Source: Bacteroidetes bacterium MED-G13
GTDB lineage: Bacteria; Bacteroidota; Bacteroidia; Flavobacteriales; Flavobacteriaceae
Assembly: GCA_002457735.1 (NCBI GenBank)
Contig: NTKO01000001.1
Coordinates: 1-64,000 of the forward strand
Direction: 5' to 3'
DNA length: 64,000 nucleotides
A model generated the notes under the pieces. The model saw nothing but the letters and a program-made list of their open reading frames with translations, searched no databases and was not told the DNA's origin. Positions 35,961 to 60,602 of the stretch are shown in pieces (position 1 is the stretch's first letter; every line of letters begins with the position of its first letter). Both the position numbers and the translations under genes were made by a program.

Positions 35961-36725
35961 TTAAGATGTAATTCCTTTAACAAAAGATCTAATTGAAGAA
36001 ATACCATTTTTTTGTATATGTTTAATAAAAGCACTCCCAATTATAGATCCATTTGCATACTTATTCACTGTTAAAAAGGTTTCCCTATTTGAAATACCAA
36101 ATCCAATTATTTTTGGGGTTTTTAATTTTAAATTCTTTATTCTTTTAAAATAATCAATATTTTTCTTGTTAAAATTATTTTCACCACCTGTTATACTTGA
36201 TGAACTTACCATATAAATAAATCCATCTGAGATTGAGTCAATGTACCTTATTCTATCCTCTGACGTTTGAGGAGTAATTAAAAATATATTGATTAAATTA
36301 TTTTGTTGGAAAAAAAATTTATAATCACTTATATATATTTCAGGCGGTAAATCAGGAATAATCAATCCGTCAATACCTACCTCTTTACATTTTTTACAAA
36401 ATAAATCAATCCCATATTGAAAAATAGGATTAAAGTACCCCATTATTATTAATGGTATATCAGTATGATTTCTTATATCAATAAGCTGTTCAAATAATAA
36501 TTGTGTAGACATTCCATTAGCTAAAGCAATTTTTGAACTATTTTGAATTGTTTGACCATCAGCTAATGGATCACTAAATGGTAACCCTAGCTCAATCATA
36601 TCAACTTTACTAGCATCTAGTTTTTTGATGATCTGCACTGTATCATTTAAACAAGGAAACCCAACGGTAAAATAAATAGAAAGAATATCTTCCGATTGTT
36701 TTAATTTTTTTTTAATTCTATTCAT
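35961..36725 (-). CDS. trpA: tryptophan synthase alpha chain
   Basis: DMIELGLPFSDPLADGQTIQ, LIIPDLPPEI. Confidence 0.96.
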   Translation of the reverse strand: MNRIKKKLKQSEDILSIYFTVGFPCLNDTVQIIKKLDASKVDMIELGLPFSDPLADGQTIQNSSKIALANGMSTQLLFEQLIDIRNHTDIPLIIMGYFNPIFQYGIDLFCKKCKEVGIDGLIIPDLPPEIYISDYKFFFQQNNLINIFLITPQTSEDRIRYIDSISDGFIYMVSSSSITGGENNFNKKNIDYFKRIKNLKLKTPKIIGFGISNRETFLTVNKYANGSIIGSAFIKHIQKNGISSIRSFVKGITS

Positions 36726-37906
36726 TAAATTTTAAAATAATCTGTATAATTTTCTAAATCTTTATCTCCTCTACCTGATAGGTTTACCACTACTACGTCC
36801 TTTGGTTTAAATTTTTTATTTTCAAAAATAGCAAATGCATGAGCAGTTTCAATAGCTGGTATAATGCCCTCAGTTTGCGATAACATCAAGCCTGCGGCCA
36901 TTGCCCCATCATCATCAATAGAAATAAATTGCCCTCTATTTGAAGTAAAAAGATTAGCATGCATAGGTCCTATACCTGGGTAATCTAAACCAGCAGAAAT
37001 TGAGTATGGCTCAGTTATTTGCCCATCATCAGTTTGCATCAGCAGAGTTTTACTTCCATGGATAATTCCAAGTTTTCCAAGCTTTGTAGTAGCAGCTGAT
37101 TTTCCAGAATTTATTCCTTTTCCTGATGCTTCAACACAAATTATTTTAACTCTTTTGTCATCCAAATAATCGTAAAAAGTTCCCGCAGCATTACTTCCAC
37201 CTCCGACACAGGCAACTAGATAATCAGGATAATCTCTTCCTTCAACCTGCATAAGTTGTTCTTTAATTTCTTTTGATATTACAGATTGGAATCTTGCAAC
37301 CATATCAGGAAATGGGTGTGGTCCAACTACACTTCCAACAATATAATGTGTATCAATTGGATTATTTATCCAATCTCTCATTGCCTCATTCGTTGCATCC
37401 TTCAAAGTTGAACTTCCAGAGGTGACTGAAATTACCTCAGCTCCTAACATTTTCATTCTTGCAACATTTGGAGACTGTCTTTTAATATCTGTGGCACCCA
37501 TATAAACAATACATTTTAAGCCCATTAATGCACATACAGTTGCAGTAGCTACTCCATGTTGACCTGCACCAGTTTCAGCGATAATCCTAGATTTCTTTAA
37601 TCTTTTTGCAAGAAGTATTTGACCAATAGTATTATTAATTTTATGTGAACCAGTGTGATTTAAATCTTCTCTTTTTAAATAAATTTTAGCTGAATATTTT
37701 CGAGACAAATTTTTTGAAAAATATAATGGAGAGGGTCTGCCTACATAATCCTTTAAAAGTTCGTTAAATTCTTTTAAAAAACTCTGATCATTAATAATTT
37801 TTAAATAATTATCATTCAGTTCTTCTATATTATGTAATAACATTTCTGGAATGTAAGCACCTCCAAAACTTCCATAGTATCCCTTAGAATTTATATTATA
37901 ACTCAT
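36725..37906 (-). CDS. trpB: tryptophan synthase beta chain
   Basis: KREDLNHTGSHKINN, ETGAGQHGVATATVCALMG, VGGGSNAAG. Confidence 0.97.
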   Translation of the reverse strand: MSYNINSKGYYGSFGGAYIPEMLLHNIEELNDNYLKIINDQSFLKEFNELLKDYVGRPSPLYFSKNLSRKYSAKIYLKREDLNHTGSHKINNTIGQILLAKRLKKSRIIAETGAGQHGVATATVCALMGLKCIVYMGATDIKRQSPNVARMKMLGAEVISVTSGSSTLKDATNEAMRDWINNPIDTHYIVGSVVGPHPFPDMVARFQSVISKEIKEQLMQVEGRDYPDYLVACVGGGSNAAGTFYDYLDDKRVKIICVEASGKGINSGKSAATTKLGKLGIIHGSKTLLMQTDDGQITEPYSISAGLDYPGIGPMHANLFTSNRGQFISIDDDGAMAAGLMLSQTEGIIPAIETAHAFAIFENKKFKPKDVVVVNLSGRGDKDLENYTDYFKI

Positions 37907-38504
37907 TAATAAAATTTTTAATTAATTGAAAATCTTTTATACCATAGTCAATTTCAAATTGACTATTAATGTCTACTGCAACACAATTTTTTGAAACAAC
38001 AGAATTTAAAAATATCTTAAGATTTTTAAGAGATTTAATTCCAATACCACCACTTAAAAAAAATTGTTTATTTATTTTATAATTACTTAATATATTCCAA
38101 TCAAAGGATATGCCATTACCACCTGGTAAATTACCTGCAGTGTCAAACAAAAAGTAATCACAGCTTAAATAGTTTTTGAGAACATTAAAATTAAAGTTTG
38201 CATCAACAGCAAAAGCTTTAATAATTTTAATGTCCTTAATTTTAGAAATAAATTTTGGTGTTTCATTTCCATGTAATTGAATGAAATCTAATTTGTGTTT
38301 ATTTACCATTTTATTTATGTATTCAATTTCAGGATCAACAAAAACACCAACTTTCTTTATATTTTTATTTATTGTTGGGATGTTGTGTTTATTGATATAC
38401 CTTTTTGAGTTGTTGTAAAAAATAAATCCCATAAAATCAGGCCCTAATTCTGCAATCAATTTGATATTTTCTGCATATTTCATACCACAAACTTTTAGTT
38501 TCAT
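37896..38504 (-). CDS. trpF: phosphoribosylanthranilate isomerase
   Basis: LKVCGMKYAENI, FIQLHGNETP, LSGGIGIKSL. Confidence 0.94.
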   Translation of the reverse strand: MKLKVCGMKYAENIKLIAELGPDFMGFIFYNNSKRYINKHNIPTINKNIKKVGVFVDPEIEYINKMVNKHKLDFIQLHGNETPKFISKIKDIKIIKAFAVDANFNFNVLKNYLSCDYFLFDTAGNLPGGNGISFDWNILSNYKINKQFFLSGGIGIKSLKNLKIFLNSVVSKNCVAVDINSQFEIDYGIKDFQLIKNFINEL

Positions 38505-39286
38505 TGCTCTATTTTTTTTATTAAATTCTTTGCAGCTGTTCCAGGATCTGCTGATTTCATGAAATATTCTCCAATTAAGAAACCCTCAAATCCATACAAT
38601 CTCAAATCATTAATCGATTCATAGCTATGAAACCCACTTTCTGAAATTTTTATAAAATCATTAGGGATTTTTTTTGAAATATTTTTTGAAATATTAATAT
38701 CTGTTTTAAATGTTTTCAAATCTCTATTATTTACTCCAATCAGATCAACATATTGGCATAGTGCCTTATCTAATTCCCTCTCACAATGGATTTCAACTAA
38801 CACTTCTAAATTTAATTCTTTTGCTAGTTTTGATAGATTATTTATTTCTTTTTTCGATAAGATTGAGGCAATTAATAATACTACATCAGCTCCCAATGAT
38901 TTTGATTCAATAATTTGAAATTCATCTATAATAAAATCCTTTCTTAAAACTGGACCTGAGAAAATTTCTTTGGAAATTTTTAAATCTTGGTTAGATCCAC
39001 CAAAAAAATGGTAATCCGTTAAAACAGAAATACCGGAAACTTTCGCTTTTTTATAGCCATTAATTACATCCTCTACATACAAATAATCATTAATTATATT
39101 TTTTGAGGGAGACTTTCTTTTGTGTTCAGCAATGATTCCTGATTTACTAGATTTTAAATTTTTTTTTAGGGAAACCGTAAGCTTTTCAAATAGTTTTGTG
39201 GATTGTAAATCATTGATTGTATAATTAGATTTGAGAATATTTATCTCATTTTTTTTATACTTAATTATTTTATTTAGGATATTCAT
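38501..39286 (-). CDS. trpC: indole-3-glycerol phosphate synthase
   Basis: IIAEHKRKSPSK, VLRKDFIIDEFQIIES, GVNNRDLKTF. Confidence 0.95.
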   Translation of the reverse strand: MNILNKIIKYKKNEINILKSNYTINDLQSTKLFEKLTVSLKKNLKSSKSGIIAEHKRKSPSKNIINDYLYVEDVINGYKKAKVSGISVLTDYHFFGGSNQDLKISKEIFSGPVLRKDFIIDEFQIIESKSLGADVVLLIASILSKKEINNLSKLAKELNLEVLVEIHCERELDKALCQYVDLIGVNNRDLKTFKTDINISKNISKKIPNDFIKISESGFHSYESINDLRLYGFEGFLIGEYFMKSADPGTAAKNLIKKIEQ

Positions 39287-40302
39287 TTACTCATACCTAT
39301 TAGTTTATTAAATGAATTGAGTGCTTTTTTGCTAAACAAAGAATCTTTAGCAAGCTCACAAGCTTGATTAAGGTCTACCCCTTTTGCAATAGAAATTGCT
39401 AATGCAGAATTTGCCAATACCACATTGATTTGTTCTTTAGTCCCATTTAGATTTAAAATATCATAAAAAATCTTTGCAGCTTCCTTGACAGAGTTTCCTC
39501 CAAAAATTTTATCGGGAGATATTTTCCCGAAATTAAGATCACTTGGTTTTAATAAAAACTCTTTATTATTAAAAGCAACTTTAGTTTCAGAAGTAAGAGA
39601 AATTTCATCATAGCCATCCAAAGAATATACTATAGAATATTGAAGTTTAGTTGTTTTTTCAAAGACAGACTTATATAATCGAAATACATCTAATCCATAA
39701 ACACCTACAAGCTGAAAATCAGGTTGACAAGGATTCACCAATGGGCCCAGAATATTAAAAAATGTTTTTAACCCTAAGGCTTTTCTAACAGGTGCAACAT
39801 TTTTCATTGCTGGATGAAATAAAGGTGCATGTAAAATGCATATGTTTGCTTTATCTAAACAATCGTTTAGAAAATTAAAATCATTACTAAATTTGATCCC
39901 AAAATATTCTAAAAGGTTTGATGAACCACAAGCTGATGAAACAGAGTAATTTCCATGTTTAGTTACATGGATACCTGCACCAGCTGTAACGAATGAAGCC
40001 AATGTTGATATATTAAAGGTATTTTTATTATCTCCACCAGTTCCACACAAATCAATTGTTTGAAAATCCTTGAAATCTATTTTCACACATAATTCAAGAA
40101 GGGCACTTTTAAAACCAATTATTTCCTCTGAAGTAACACCTCTCATCATAAAAATAGTCAAGAAAGATGCTATTTGTTCATCGTTATATTTACCACTTGA
40201 AATTTCAATTAGTATATTTCTAGATTCTATTTGATCTAGATTTTCGTGATTGATAAGTCGCTGAATTATTTCTTTCATTTTAGCTCTTGACCCAATTCTC
40301 AA
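39283..40302 (-). CDS. trpD: anthranilate phosphoribosyltransferase
   Basis: DLCGTGGDNKNTFNISTLASFV, KHGNYSVSSACGSSNLLE. Confidence 0.96.
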   Translation of the reverse strand: MRIGSRAKMKEIIQRLINHENLDQIESRNILIEISSGKYNDEQIASFLTIFMMRGVTSEEIIGFKSALLELCVKIDFKDFQTIDLCGTGGDNKNTFNISTLASFVTAGAGIHVTKHGNYSVSSACGSSNLLEYFGIKFSNDFNFLNDCLDKANICILHAPLFHPAMKNVAPVRKALGLKTFFNILGPLVNPCQPDFQLVGVYGLDVFRLYKSVFEKTTKLQYSIVYSLDGYDEISLTSETKVAFNNKEFLLKPSDLNFGKISPDKIFGGNSVKEAAKIFYDILNLNGTKEQINVVLANSALAISIAKGVDLNQACELAKDSLFSKKALNSFNKLIGMSK

Positions 40303-40843
40303 TTAATTTTTTTCCATGGGGAGTTAGTATTGATTCCGGATGAAACTGCACACCTTTTACATCATATTTTTTATGTCTAATTGACATAATTTGGTTGTTG
40401 TTATCTATTGATGTGATTTCTAAATCTTCAGAAATTGTATCAACAACCCATGAATGATACCTTGCAGCAAGGAAGTTATTTTTGATTCCTTTAAAAATTA
40501 ATTCATCCCCAACACAGATATTTATTTCAGTTGAAACACCATGAAAAACATCATCTAAGTTTTTAAGAGTTCCTCCGTATACCTCTGCAATTGCTTGTTG
40601 ACCCAAACATACTCCTAGAATACTTTTCGTTGACCCATATTTTGAAATAACTTCTTTTAAAAGACCAGCTTCATCAGGAATTCCAGGACCAGGAGAAAGT
40701 AAAATTTTAGGAAAGTTTACAATATCTTCTATTATAAACTTATCATTTCTAAACACAGACACATCACAATTTAATTCCTTTAACAAGTGAACCAAATTAT
40801 AAGTAAAACTATCATAATTGTCTATAACTAATACTTTTTTCAT
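40280..40843 (-). CDS. trpG: anthranilate synthase component II (glutamine amidotransferase)
   Basis: NYDSFTYNLVHLL, SPGPGIPDEAG, GVCLGQQAIAEVYGG, GVQFHPES. Confidence 0.95.
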   Translation of the reverse strand: MKKVLVIDNYDSFTYNLVHLLKELNCDVSVFRNDKFIIEDIVNFPKILLSPGPGIPDEAGLLKEVISKYGSTKSILGVCLGQQAIAEVYGGTLKNLDDVFHGVSTEINICVGDELIFKGIKNNFLAARYHSWVVDTISEDLEITSIDNNNQIMSIRHKKYDVKGVQFHPESILTPHGKKLIENWVKS

Positions 40844-42243
40844 ACCTGTAAATTATTTGCTATTTCTATTGACTTTGTTAGGGCGTTTAATTTGTTATAA
40901 ACTTCCTGTAATTCATTTTCATTTTCTGACTTATCTACAATACCTGCACCCGCTTGCCAATACAAATAATTGTCTTTACTTAAAAAAGTTCTTATCATTA
41001 TTGCGTGATTATAATTTCCGTGGAAATCCAATAAACCAATTGCTCCTCCGTAGTATCCCCTATTTGTTTTTTCATATTTTTCAATTAAATTCATTGCCAT
41101 ATGCTTTGGCGCACCGGACAGGGTTCCTGCAGGAAAAGTGTCAGCAATAATTTTTAAATTATTATTAAGGGTTTCTAGTTCACCTGTTACTTTACTTACA
41201 AGGTGTATAACATGAGAGAAATACTGTACTTCTTTGAACTTATCAACTCTAACAGTTGAACAATTTCTACTTAAATCATTCCTCGCTAAATCTACTAGCA
41301 TTACATGCTCACTTCCTTCTTTTGGATCATTGATTAGTTGCTTGGCAAGTAATTTATCTTCAGCTTCATTTCCGGTTCTCTTGAAAGTTCCAGCAATTGG
41401 ATGGATTTCAGCAAACTTATCATTGATTACTAATTGAGCTTCTGGTGAGCTACCAAATATTTTATAACTACCAAAATCAAAATAAAATAAATAAGGTGAT
41501 GGATTTATACTTCTTAATGCTCTATAGACGTTAAAATCATCACCCTTAAATTGTTGTGAGAACCTCCTGGACAAGACTAATTGGAAAACATCTCCTCTTT
41601 TACAATGTTGCTTCGCATCAGTAATATGCTTAAGAAATTCTGTATCTGTTAAATTTGATTTGATTTTATCAATTGATTCAAAGCTGAAATTGTAGGAATT
41701 GGATACTTTAATAAGCTGGTATACTTCATCGATATTATTACTTTCATCCAAAGAATGACAAAAAATATATGCTTCATTTTTGAAATGATTAATGGCAATT
41801 ATATTTTTATATACGCCGTAATACATTTCTGGGATTTTAATGGAATTTTCTTTTTCTATAATATTTACATCTTCAAAATATTGTACAGCATCATAGGATG
41901 TAAATCCAAAAAGACCATTATTTATAAACGAAAATTTACTTTTTTCAACTTTAAATGAATTAATGAAGTTCTGCAGCTCTTCAATTACATTTTTTTTGGA
42001 ACAAGGAATATTTTTATATGAATTGTTTGGCAATTTTGATGAAATAATATTATTGGAAACTTCAAATGAAGCAATCTGATCAAAACATATATAAGAGAAG
42101 CTATTATTAATGGAATTATAATCACTGCTCTCTAATAATAGACTTTTTGGGAATTTATCTCTTACCCTTAAATAGATACTAACAGGTGTTATTGTATCAA
42201 CTAAAAAATTTTTATATGTGGTTTTTAATTCTATTTTTTCCAT
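40840..42243 (-). CDS. trpE: anthranilate synthase component I
   Basis: LLLESSDY Trp-feedback motif, GDVFQLVLSRRFSQQF, FPAGTLSGAPKHMAM, YWQAGAGIVDKSENENE. Confidence 0.95.
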   Translation of the reverse strand: MEKIELKTTYKNFLVDTITPVSIYLRVRDKFPKSLLLESSDYNSINNSFSYICFDQIASFEVSNNIISSKLPNNSYKNIPCSKKNVIEELQNFINSFKVEKSKFSFINNGLFGFTSYDAVQYFEDVNIIEKENSIKIPEMYYGVYKNIIAINHFKNEAYIFCHSLDESNNIDEVYQLIKVSNSYNFSFESIDKIKSNLTDTEFLKHITDAKQHCKRGDVFQLVLSRRFSQQFKGDDFNVYRALRSINPSPYLFYFDFGSYKIFGSSPEAQLVINDKFAEIHPIAGTFKRTGNEAEDKLLAKQLINDPKEGSEHVMLVDLARNDLSRNCSTVRVDKFKEVQYFSHVIHLVSKVTGELETLNNNLKIIADTFPAGTLSGAPKHMAMNLIEKYEKTNRGYYGGAIGLLDFHGNYNHAIMIRTFLSKDNYLYWQAGAGIVDKSENENELQEVYNKLNALTKSIEIANNLQV

Positions 42244-42249
42244 TTTTCA

Positions 42250-42278
42250 AAAGAGAGCCACTTAATGTGACTCTCTTT
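42250..42278 (-). other. 12-bp stem-loop 6 nt upstream of the trpE start codon
   Basis: Minus strand AAAGAGAGTCAC-ATTAA-GTGGCTCTCTTT then TGAAAA-ATG. Confidence 0.85.
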
Positions 42279-42310
42279 GATTTAATCAACAAACTAAACT
42301 AACTATTATG

Positions 42311-42343
42311 AAAAAAAAAAGCTTATCGTGATGATAAGCTTTT
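42311..42343 (-). terminator. trp attenuator terminator
   Basis: Minus strand AAAAGCTTATC-ATCAC-GATAAGCTTTTTTTTTT, 11-bp stem plus U tract between leader peptide and trpE. Confidence 0.92.
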
Positions 42344-42376
42344 AATTTTTTTTTACAAATAGCAGTTACATCACGA
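42326..42376 (-). promoter_or_regulatory. trp antiterminator (TCGTGATG pairs with CATCACGA)
   Basis: TCGTGATG (42369-42376, spanning the leader stop) is complementary to CATCACGA (42326-42333) in the terminator loop and 3' arm. Confidence 0.8.
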
Positions 42377-42427
42377 AATAGGTATTTCATGCATCCACCA
42401 CCATTTATTTGTAATTCTTTTAATCAT
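42371..42427 (-). CDS. Trp leader peptide MIKRITNKWWWMHEIPIS
   Basis: 18-codon ORF with three consecutive TGG codons, upstream of an antiterminator/terminator and trpE. Confidence 0.9.
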   Translation of the reverse strand: MIKRITNKWWWMHEIPIS

Positions 42428-42462
42428 TTCTTAAATATAATAATCTATTTACTATAAAAAAA

Positions 42463-58055: not shown

Positions 58056-60602
58056 ATGAAAACATATAGGTTTTATTTAATACTATTTTTACTATTTTTT
58101 GGAAATAAAATTCATCCACAGGACGGTATTGAAAAATATGAAATTGGTGAAATTACTGTTTCCGGTAATACATCTTTTAGCCCATTGACCATTATTACAT
58201 ATTCTGGCCTTGAAAAAGGGGAAAACATTTCGATCCCAGGAGAAAAATTAAGTAATGCTATAAAAAAGCTTTGGGCATCAAACTTATTTAGTTCAGTAAA
58301 TGTTTACAAGAGAAATATCTCTGATAATAAAATTGACCTTGAAATTGAATTATTTGACCTGGCAGAATTGAAAGAATTAGAAATAAATGGTATTAAAAAG
58401 AGAAAAGTTGAAGAGGTTATAAAAGAAAATAAATTACAAATTGGGGTTAAAGTCACCGAAAACTTAATTACAACAACAAAAAATTACCTTGAAAATAAGT
58501 ACAGGGAAAAAGGATTTTTAAAAGCGAAAGTAAATATTTTTTCTGAAGATTATACTGATTCTACAGGCAAGGCAAAAGTAAATATGAAAATTAATATTGA
58601 TAAAGGCCCAAAAATTAAGATAAAAAAAATAAACATCCTGGGAAATGAAAAATTGAGCTATAGAATGATTGAAAAGTCAATGAAAAATACTAAAAGAAAA
58701 AAATTCTACAGGGTTTTTAAGAGATCAAAATATATTCCTGAAGACTTTCAGGAAGACCTTTCTAGTATTATTGAAAAATACAAGGAAAGAGGTTATCGTG
58801 ACGCTAGAATAATTTCTGATTCAATATATGATGAAAATAAAAATGAAATAAATATTGAAATTTCCTTAACTGAGGGTGAAAAGTATTCATTTGGAAAAAT
58901 AGAATATTTAGGTAACACAATTTACACTGATCAACAACTCAATCAAATTCTCAAGATTAAAGAAGGTGACACTTATAATGGTGTTGAGCTTGAAAAGAGA
59001 ATTGCAGATAGATCAGACCCTGATGCTAACGATTTAAGTAATTTATATCAAAACAATGGATACTTATTTTCATCTGTAACACCTGTTGAAGTTAATGCTG
59101 ATGGAAACGAAATAGACTTAGAAATTAGAATAAACGAAGGCAAACCAGCATATTTTAACAAAATTACCGTTGTCGGAAATAATAAAACAAATGACCACGT
59201 AATTTATAGAGAAATAAGAACTCGACCGGGTCAACTGTATAGTAAGGCTAATGTGTTTAGATCTTTAAGGGAACTAGGTCAATTAGGGTTTTTTGATCCT
59301 CAACTTATTACACCTGATTTTAAAAATATTAACCCTACTACTGGAACCGTTGATTTAGAGTATTCACTAGTTGAAACTGGTTCGAGCACCATTGAATTAC
59401 AAGGGGGGTATGGTGGTGGAGGTTTTATTGGAACTCTTGGTTTTTCTTTTAATAATTTTTCTGTGAAAGATATCTTTAAAAAAGAAGCATATAAACCTGT
59501 ACCAATGGGTGATGGGCAAAGATTAGCACTTAGATTGCAGGCAAGTAGATTCTACACAGTAAATAGCTTCAACTTTACTGAACCATGGCTTGGAGGTAAA
59601 AAACCTGTTCAATTTTCTGTTCAACTATCTCAAACCAAGCAATTCATGTTTAATCCCTACAGCTACACAGCTGATAAATCAAGATATTTTAATATTTCAG
59701 GGCTATCGATTGGAATTGCAAAGAGACTAACTGTACCTGATGATTATTTTACCCTTGCTCAATATATTGGATTTCAATATTACGACTTAAATGACTATAG
59801 AACCGGTCTATTTACATTTGGTAATGGTTCTTCCAGTAATTTTTCTTACACAATCGCGTTGAGCAGAAATAACACATATACCGATCCAATTTATCCGACT
59901 GGCGGTTCTAACTTTAGTATTTCAGCTAAGTTGACACCTCCATATTCAGCATTTAATAATGTAGACTATAATGCATTAAAAGAGGAAAGATCAAGTATGG
60001 TTGAAATACTTTCAGAAGATCCAACGAATTCTGATGCGTCTGATAGAATAGCTGATATTGATCAGGAAAGATATAAGTGGCTCGAATTTTATAAAATAAA
60101 ATTTAAAGGGGAATGGTTTACCGCACTCACAGAAAAGCTTGTCTTAAGACCATCCTTTGATTTTGGATTTCTTGGCGCATACAATAATGATAGAGGAATA
60201 ATTCCTTTTGAAAGATTTTTCTTGGGTGGAGATGGAATGGGAATGTATAATCTAGATGGAAGAGAGAATGTACCGCTTAGAGGATATCCAAACTCATCAC
60301 TTTCTACTCAGGATGGAGGCTCTATTTTCAATAAATATTCGTTAGAACTTCGATATCCTATCAGCTTGGGTGAGCAAGCTAAAATTTTTGCTTTATCATT
60401 CATTGAGGGAGGTGCTTCATACAATAGCTTTAGAGATTTCAACCCCTTTTTATTAAACAGATCAGCTGGCGTAGGAATTAGACTTTTTATGCCCCAATTT
60501 GGCTTATTAGGTATTGATTTTGGTCATGGTTTTGATCCTATACCTGGGCAATCAACAAAACATGGATGGGAAACACATTTTATATTTGGACAAAATTTTT
60601 AA
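58056..60602 (+). CDS. bamA: outer membrane protein assembly factor BamA
   Basis: POTRA repeats and C-terminal Omp85 barrel; RFFLGGDGMGMYNLDGRENVPLRGY. Confidence 0.95.
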   Translation: MKTYRFYLILFLLFFGNKIHPQDGIEKYEIGEITVSGNTSFSPLTIITYSGLEKGENISIPGEKLSNAIKKLWASNLFSSVNVYKRNISDNKIDLEIELFDLAELKELEINGIKKRKVEEVIKENKLQIGVKVTENLITTTKNYLENKYREKGFLKAKVNIFSEDYTDSTGKAKVNMKINIDKGPKIKIKKINILGNEKLSYRMIEKSMKNTKRKKFYRVFKRSKYIPEDFQEDLSSIIEKYKERGYRDARIISDSIYDENKNEINIEISLTEGEKYSFGKIEYLGNTIYTDQQLNQILKIKEGDTYNGVELEKRIADRSDPDANDLSNLYQNNGYLFSSVTPVEVNADGNEIDLEIRINEGKPAYFNKITVVGNNKTNDHVIYREIRTRPGQLYSKANVFRSLRELGQLGFFDPQLITPDFKNINPTTGTVDLEYSLVETGSSTIELQGGYGGGGFIGTLGFSFNNFSVKDIFKKEAYKPVPMGDGQRLALRLQASRFYTVNSFNFTEPWLGGKKPVQFSVQLSQTKQFMFNPYSYTADKSRYFNISGLSIGIAKRLTVPDDYFTLAQYIGFQYYDLNDYRTGLFTFGNGSSSNFSYTIALSRNNTYTDPIYPTGGSNFSISAKLTPPYSAFNNVDYNALKEERSSMVEILSEDPTNSDASDRIADIDQERYKWLEFYKIKFKGEWFTALTEKLVLRPSFDFGFLGAYNNDRGIIPFERFFLGGDGMGMYNLDGRENVPLRGYPNSSLSTQDGGSIFNKYSLELRYPISLGEQAKIFALSFIEGGASYNSFRDFNPFLLNRSAGVGIRLFMPQFGLLGIDFGHGFDPIPGQSTKHGWETHFIFGQNF

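Follow-up and report, generated by a model that had tools for sequence, protein, structure and literature searches.

In the trp leader of Escherichia coli, Trp codons in a short leader peptide govern the choice among the mutually exclusive 1:2, 2:3, and 3:4 hairpins, and the stop codon adjoins strand 2. For Bacteroidota, a dedicated Rfam family, Bacteroid-trp (RF01692), is already known, having been catalogued among the probable cis-regulatory RNAs of Bacteroidetes (Weinberg 2010, PMC2864571). The family has been linked to Trp attenuation as a trp leader in Flavobacterium psychrophilum (PMC6414381), in which leader-peptide attenuation upstream of amino-acid operons has also been inferred (PMC9723704). 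In the open literature searched, we found no prior account of this antiterminator in Bacteroidota. In Sinorhizobium meliloti, the 5' end of the trpL attenuator (rnTrpL) lies at the leader ATG, and the terminated RNA acts in trans (PMC7298713). Because RF01692 already exists, the attenuator described here is not a new kind; it adds a member to that family, and the additions to prior knowledge are the class-wide evidence for an antiterminator and the orphan leaders.

The leader ORF and the trp operon in the window

The window, i.e., the whole stretch of DNA analyzed, comprises 64 kb of a 1.06-Mb assembly that is 82% complete. The closest named relatives of this genome are single-cell and metagenome Flavobacteriaceae, presumably marine to judge from the isolate names. 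A previous sequence-only reading had placed a WWW leader peptide on the minus strand, as part of an attenuator directly upstream of trpEGDCFBA, and both the peptide and its position were borne out:

42439..42432, minus strand: -7 promoter-like box TATATTTA, TAnnTTTG with one mismatch, 4 nt upstream of the leader ATG
42427..42371, minus strand: leader ORF MIKRITNKWWWMHEIPIS with its stop, read from the sequence, with orthologous WWW leaders
42403..42395, minus strand: three tandem Trp codons (TGG x3), the putative sensor, WWW being nearly invariant in the family alignment
42373..42371, minus strand: leader stop UGA, read from the sequence
40840..42243, minus strand: trpE, the first controlled gene; best match TIGR00564 with 418 bits, below the TIGR00564 equivalog cut-off
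35961..40843, minus strand: trpG, trpD, trpC, trpF, trpB, and trpA

The operon thus runs in the order trpE-G-D-C-F-B-A from 42243 to 35961, downstream of the attenuator. The leader is the only short ATG-started ORF with WWW in the window, compared with 0.05 expected per shuffled window. The stretch TGGTGGTGG occurs twice (0.09 expected), with a short ATG-started ORF for one copy only; the other copy, at 59411-59419 on the plus strand, lies outside any such ORF.

As to the transcription start, for which the earlier reading had named a downstream position as a refutation, a predicted Bacteroidota -7 box precedes the leader. Of the 168 distinct leaders, 135 have a perfect copy of the consensus TAnnTTTG, as given in PMC9723704, in the 45 nt that precede them, against 7.6 expected from shuffles. 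Judging from this box, the 5' end of the window attenuator would lie at or near the leader ATG, as in the Trp attenuator rnTrpL of S. meliloti.

Terminator, antiterminator, and anti-antiterminator

Downstream of the Trp codons, the following elements were located:

42397..42408, minus strand: outer anti-antiterminator helix, 5' arm, holding the Trp codons (MFE fold)
42372..42391, minus strand: inner hairpin CATGAAAT-ACCT-ATTTCGTG, sequestering part of the antiterminator strand (MFE fold)
42369..42376, minus strand: antiterminator 5' strand TCGTGATG, with the leader UGA inside
42355..42366, minus strand: outer anti-antiterminator helix, 3' arm (MFE fold)
42326..42333, minus strand: antiterminator 3' strand CATCACGA
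42311..42343, minus strand: intrinsic terminator with an 11-bp stem, a 5-nt loop, and a T tract (folding, covariation)
42253..42275, minus strand: second hairpin GAGAGTCAC-ATTAA-GTGGCTCTC, 9 nt before the trpE ATG (-14.3 kcal/mol, z -5.1)

The terminator stem-loop spans 42343..42317 with the T tract reaching 42311 (-11.3 kcal/mol; z -7.7 for the 31-nt core). As had been claimed, the leader-stop region is perfectly complementary to the loop and 3' arm of the terminator: TCGTGATG (42376..42369) pairs in full with CATCACGA (42333..42326), which takes in the whole loop together with the last 5'-arm base before it and two 3'-arm bases after it, and the antiterminator region folds better than shuffles with z -4.8. 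At the level of sequence and comparison, the leader ORF with three Trp codons is accompanied by an intrinsic terminator and a mutually exclusive antiterminator pairing. The motif TCGTGA followed by YTTRTC-loop-TCACGAYARR has a single match in the 1.06-Mb assembly and occurs in relatives only at the trp leader, with zero matches to the reversed control pattern in the window genome and relatives.

The predicted fold of the 83-nt leader (-18.9 kcal/mol, z -4.3) contains an anti-antiterminator hairpin, in which a 12-bp helix encloses an 8-bp hairpin of CATGAAAT and ATTTCGTG. The small hairpin GAAAT-ACCT-ATTTC described previously is therefore present, but it is larger than claimed, having 8 bp and lying inside the 12-bp helix 42408..42397/42366..42355. 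This outer helix matches the long hairpin of the RF01692 consensus. The position of the second hairpin before trpE is kept within the genus in the alignment, and its sequence is not. Sister species have a GGGGG/CCCCC hairpin of unrelated sequence at this place, and genomes without trp genes have a true terminator there.

Ribosome-masked folding and the proposed switch

The width of a ribosome footprint is known in general terms, and on this basis our masking model covered 12 nt, starting at the first nucleotide of the codon in the A site. When a ribosome occupied W1, W2, or W3 and the RNA had emerged as far as the last antiterminator base, the antiterminator was the most favorable fold (-12.4). 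With the ribosome at the UGA, the terminator alone formed (-11.5), and without a ribosome the anti-antiterminator formed together with the terminator (-30.4). In these models, stalling at the Trp codons thus favors the antiterminator and arrival at the UGA favors the terminator, as the sequence-only reading had proposed. At equilibrium with the entire terminator emerged, the terminator beats the antiterminator for stalls at W1 and W2, and hence the antiterminator would have to form first, during transcription, as it does in other attenuators. The window antiterminator overlaps the terminator chiefly in the loop, and the degree to which it would block the lower terminator stem is a kinetic assumption.

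We propose that RNA polymerase initiates just upstream of the leader ATG with a ribosome behind it. When charged tRNA-Trp is abundant, the ribosome would reach the UGA, inside the antiterminator strand, and cover that strand, so that the terminator folds. When Trp-tRNA is scarce, the ribosome would stall on the TGG codons, opening the anti-antiterminator hairpin and releasing TCGTGATG, which would pair with CATCACGA while the terminator's 3' arm has yet to emerge, and the polymerase would read into trpE. In the event of no translation, the anti-antiterminator would form and the terminator would fold.

Comparison with described leader families

Against RF01692, the window scored 40.6 bits (E 0.001) and did not reach the gathering score of 49, even though it is the top match to this model in its own genome. 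A leader from the same genus (L009) lies above the cut-off with 51.2 bits, and the Flavobacterium leaders tested also pass it, with up to 86.3 bits. In total, 171 of 201 Flavobacteriaceae genomes have a match at E ≤ 0.1, of which 124 are above the cut-off. We filed the window leader as a divergent member of Bacteroid-trp by homology rather than by score, because it is orthologous by locus and alignment. It shares with the family the position upstream of trp genes, the Trp-codon leader, and the helix joining the Trp-codon region to the sequence past the stop (12 bp in the MFE fold). However, the RF01692 model stops in the 5' arm of the terminator, without the complete terminator and the antiterminator pairing found here.

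The Rfam Trp_leader model (RF00513) was expected by the earlier reading to miss this element, and it does: the window reaches 20.9 bits against a cut-off of 41, which rules out this identity. The proposed mechanism resembles that of the E. coli trp leader in its Trp codons and exclusive hairpins. Unlike in E. coli, to which there is no sequence homology, the window leader has three Trp codons, the stop codon lies inside the antiterminator strand, and the antiterminator is centered on the terminator loop.

Conservation and covariation across Bacteroidia

We collected 199 trpE upstream regions from Flavobacteriaceae and the wider class Bacteroidia. A few same-genus loci are counted twice among them, being present in two collections; the permutation tests used distinct terminators only. 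A W-rich leader ORF followed by a terminator was found in 176 of the 199 regions; the remaining 23 lacked a leader or a terminator by our simple finder, some of them on account of contig ends or finder thresholds. WWW leaders occur upstream of trpE throughout the family, and nearly all leaders within it read WWW, confirming that the Trp codons are kept in orthologues. These codons are also kept across Bacteroidia, where the flanking peptide varies.

To assess the antiterminator, we scored at each locus the longest-favored uninterrupted pairing that the leader-stop region can form with the upper part of the terminator behind it, and compared this best score with those obtained for terminators of other species. 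The mean own pairing was 16.20 versus 12.83 ± 0.31 for mismatched species (z = 11, 0 of 20,000 permutations, 76 distinct terminator cores), in a permutation that breaks phylogenetic relatedness along with the pairing. The z remained at 9.6 when the TCACGA type was left out. Control regions gave z values of 0.5 (upstream of the Trp codons), 1.6 (upstream of the leader), and -1.1 (downstream of the terminator). Taken locus by locus, shuffles gave p ≤ 0.05 in just 28 of the 76. The pair reads TCGTGA/TCACGA in Flavobacteriaceae and GAACAGC/GCTGTTC, GAGAAGC/GCTTCTC, CGGGG/CCCCG, AACGTGA/TCACGTT, and others elsewhere, and its position is tied to the leader stop across the class. In the family alignment of 52 sequences, double (compensatory) changes were observed at 7 of 11 terminator pairs and 3 of 8 antiterminator pairs. 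The covariation that the earlier reading had asked for is thus seen both within the terminator and between the leader stop and the terminator loop, and sequence comparison supports the leader-terminator pairing across Bacteroidia.

Column-wise tests on the MAFFT family alignment gave zero signal for the anti-antiterminator helices, and the inner hairpin is not kept column by column. We therefore used single-sequence folds compared with shuffles. Among 163 loci, the anti-antiterminator region outperformed its shuffles in the majority (median z -2.3), and the Trp codons pair past the leader stop in 121. Support for the predicted anti-antiterminator comes from folding and from the RF01692 consensus rather than from the alignment. 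Class-wide covariation indicates that the little-studied Bacteroid-trp element carries a full antitermination switch, one that is absent from the Rfam model. In two genomes (L023 and L024, from G037 and G052), two tandem WWW leaders, each followed by a terminator-like hairpin, precede a single trpE.

Alternative explanations

The WWW peptide could be incidental, and trpE could be controlled by another sensor acting on the leader RNA, such as a T-box, a TRAP-like protein, or a riboswitch. UAG repeats (TAGTTAGTTTAGTTTG) between the terminator and trpE recall TRAP sites, and a second hairpin follows. Control by TRAP would call for about eleven (G/U)AG repeats and an mtrB gene, whereas just three to four UAG repeats are found here (three in the window between terminator and trpE), and a TRAP-controlled leader was rejected on the repeat count; likewise, a T-box leader was rejected, as matches of the leader up to E = 10 include zero T-box or riboswitch families. 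Furthermore, the WWW codons are kept within a variable peptide and the antiterminator keeps its place relative to the leader stop, which makes any such sensor very unlikely. Control at the level of trpE translation by ribosome reinitiation, or by Rho, with hairpins shaping only mRNA stability, appears more improbable still. Reinitiation has been proposed for short leader genes of Bacteroidota with gaps of 11-14 nt (PMC4833913), whereas the trpE ATG lies 127 nt past the leader stop, with an intrinsic terminator between them that co-varies.

The upstream T9SS gene has the same orientation, its end lying some 35 nt short of the leader ATG, so the leader ORF and hairpins might be its tail or a chance arrangement. 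The probability of this is practically nil: the leader is kept in other genera behind different upstream genes, the architecture is unique in the window genome, and WWW ORFs are rare in shuffled windows. Conservation of the leader already refutes it. We conclude that the window very likely encodes a classical ribosome-mediated transcription attenuator for trpEGDCFBA. The claim of a full trp attenuator in a Bacteroidota genome finds support in sequence, folding, and class-wide covariation.

Orphan leaders in genomes without trp genes

By a strict search, trpE is present in 9 of 21 genomes of the genus. Seven same-genus genomes, 65-86% complete, lack trpE, trpB, and trpC and keep the leader, a persistence in relatives that lost the trp genes that was unexpected:

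L231-L237 (G001, G002, G003, G004, G007, G011, G012) and L211: orphan Trp leaders, followed by two terminators but by no gene

The orphan leaders occupy the same locus, flanked by kdtA (or a T9SS gene) on one side and by rhlE on the other. Behind them come terminator 1, a stretch rich in U, and then another hairpin or terminator. The predicted promoter, the WWW codons, and the antiterminator pairing are likewise retained. In the seven genomes, zero ORFs of 80 aa precede the convergent neighbor. Among G001, G004, and G007, the four-fold sites of rhlE differ by 0.55-0.63, i.e., they are near-saturated; identity is 91-93% from the leader to terminator 1 and 90-95% over the remainder to terminator 2, although recombination could homogenize the locus. 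As judged by eye, TTCATGA replaces TTCGTGA in the antiterminator strand of G002, G003, and G012, and the terminator loop has followed by two different routes: G002 has a shifted ATCATGA, and G003 and G012 have TCATGA at the original position. Provided that loss of the trp genes preceded the split of these three genomes, the pairing would have been selected without trp genes in cis.

It is conceivable, though we regard it as doubtful, that in this genus the attenuator also serves as a stand-alone Trp-gated noncoding RNA, in which a short leader RNA would give way, under Trp starvation, to a longer, trans-acting one, and that the same leader provides homology for gain and loss of a trp cassette. 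Action in trans would parallel S. meliloti rnTrpL; in the present genus the leader persists without trp genes in cis.

A conserved U-rich block of UAG repeats (TTAGTTTTAGTTTG) lies between terminator 1 and hairpin 2, both in the window (42276-42310, minus strand) and at the orphan loci. In six genomes (L249, L250, L252-L255), a 13-14 nt complement of this block is found just behind another gene. The conserved TTAGTTTTAGTTTGTTT block was considered as a mark of further regulated genes; its recurrent second match is oppositely oriented behind another gene, beside the terminator of that gene, and has no leader.

Probable cassette exchange and re-targeted leaders

One genome, G017 (L238), carries the arrangement leader1-trpEGDCFBA-leader2, with leaders at about 5385 and 11882 on the minus strand. 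For trpE, trpD, trpC, and trpA, its identity to G005, G006, and G015 is 91-98%. Its flanks resemble those of the trp-less G004 (rhlE 98%, lspA 96%, kdtA 89%) rather than those of G005, G006, and G015 (rhlE 83-90%, lspA 80-89%, kdtA 64-66%). As the trp genes and flanks point to different relatives, the locus most plausibly holds a leader-trp cassette that arrived horizontally next to an orphan leader already resident there. In trp-bearing genomes, hairpin 2 upstream of trpE may be a relic of terminator 2 of the orphans, at whose position it stands.

In trpE-less genomes of three genera, the leader and terminator immediately precede a trpB2-like gene, an arrangement that would be expected for a Trp sensor:

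L239:3620-4978 (G020, same genus), L256, and L258: leader before trpB2

The gene of G020 matches TIGR01415 with 623 bits; those of G501 and G390, from other genera, were named by N-terminal similarity. The same leader is thus re-used before trpB2 (indole salvage) and persists after loss of the pathway. Together, re-use and persistence offer a testable case of an attenuator turning into an independent regulatory RNA, and of a leader as a docking site for swaps of biosynthetic operons among small-genome marine flavobacteria.

Among 40 relatives, no attenuators of exactly the same build were found besides trp leaders. An RF01692 match in G358 (L257, minus strand, about 1465-1650) lies upstream of an aspartokinase-like gene; its leader NKKDKKVHLRRTS, for which a TTG start is assumed, contains Lys and ends at a stop codon, and its terminator has TCGTGA/TCATCACGA as in the trp leaders. 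This element would probably act as a Lys attenuator with the same architecture.
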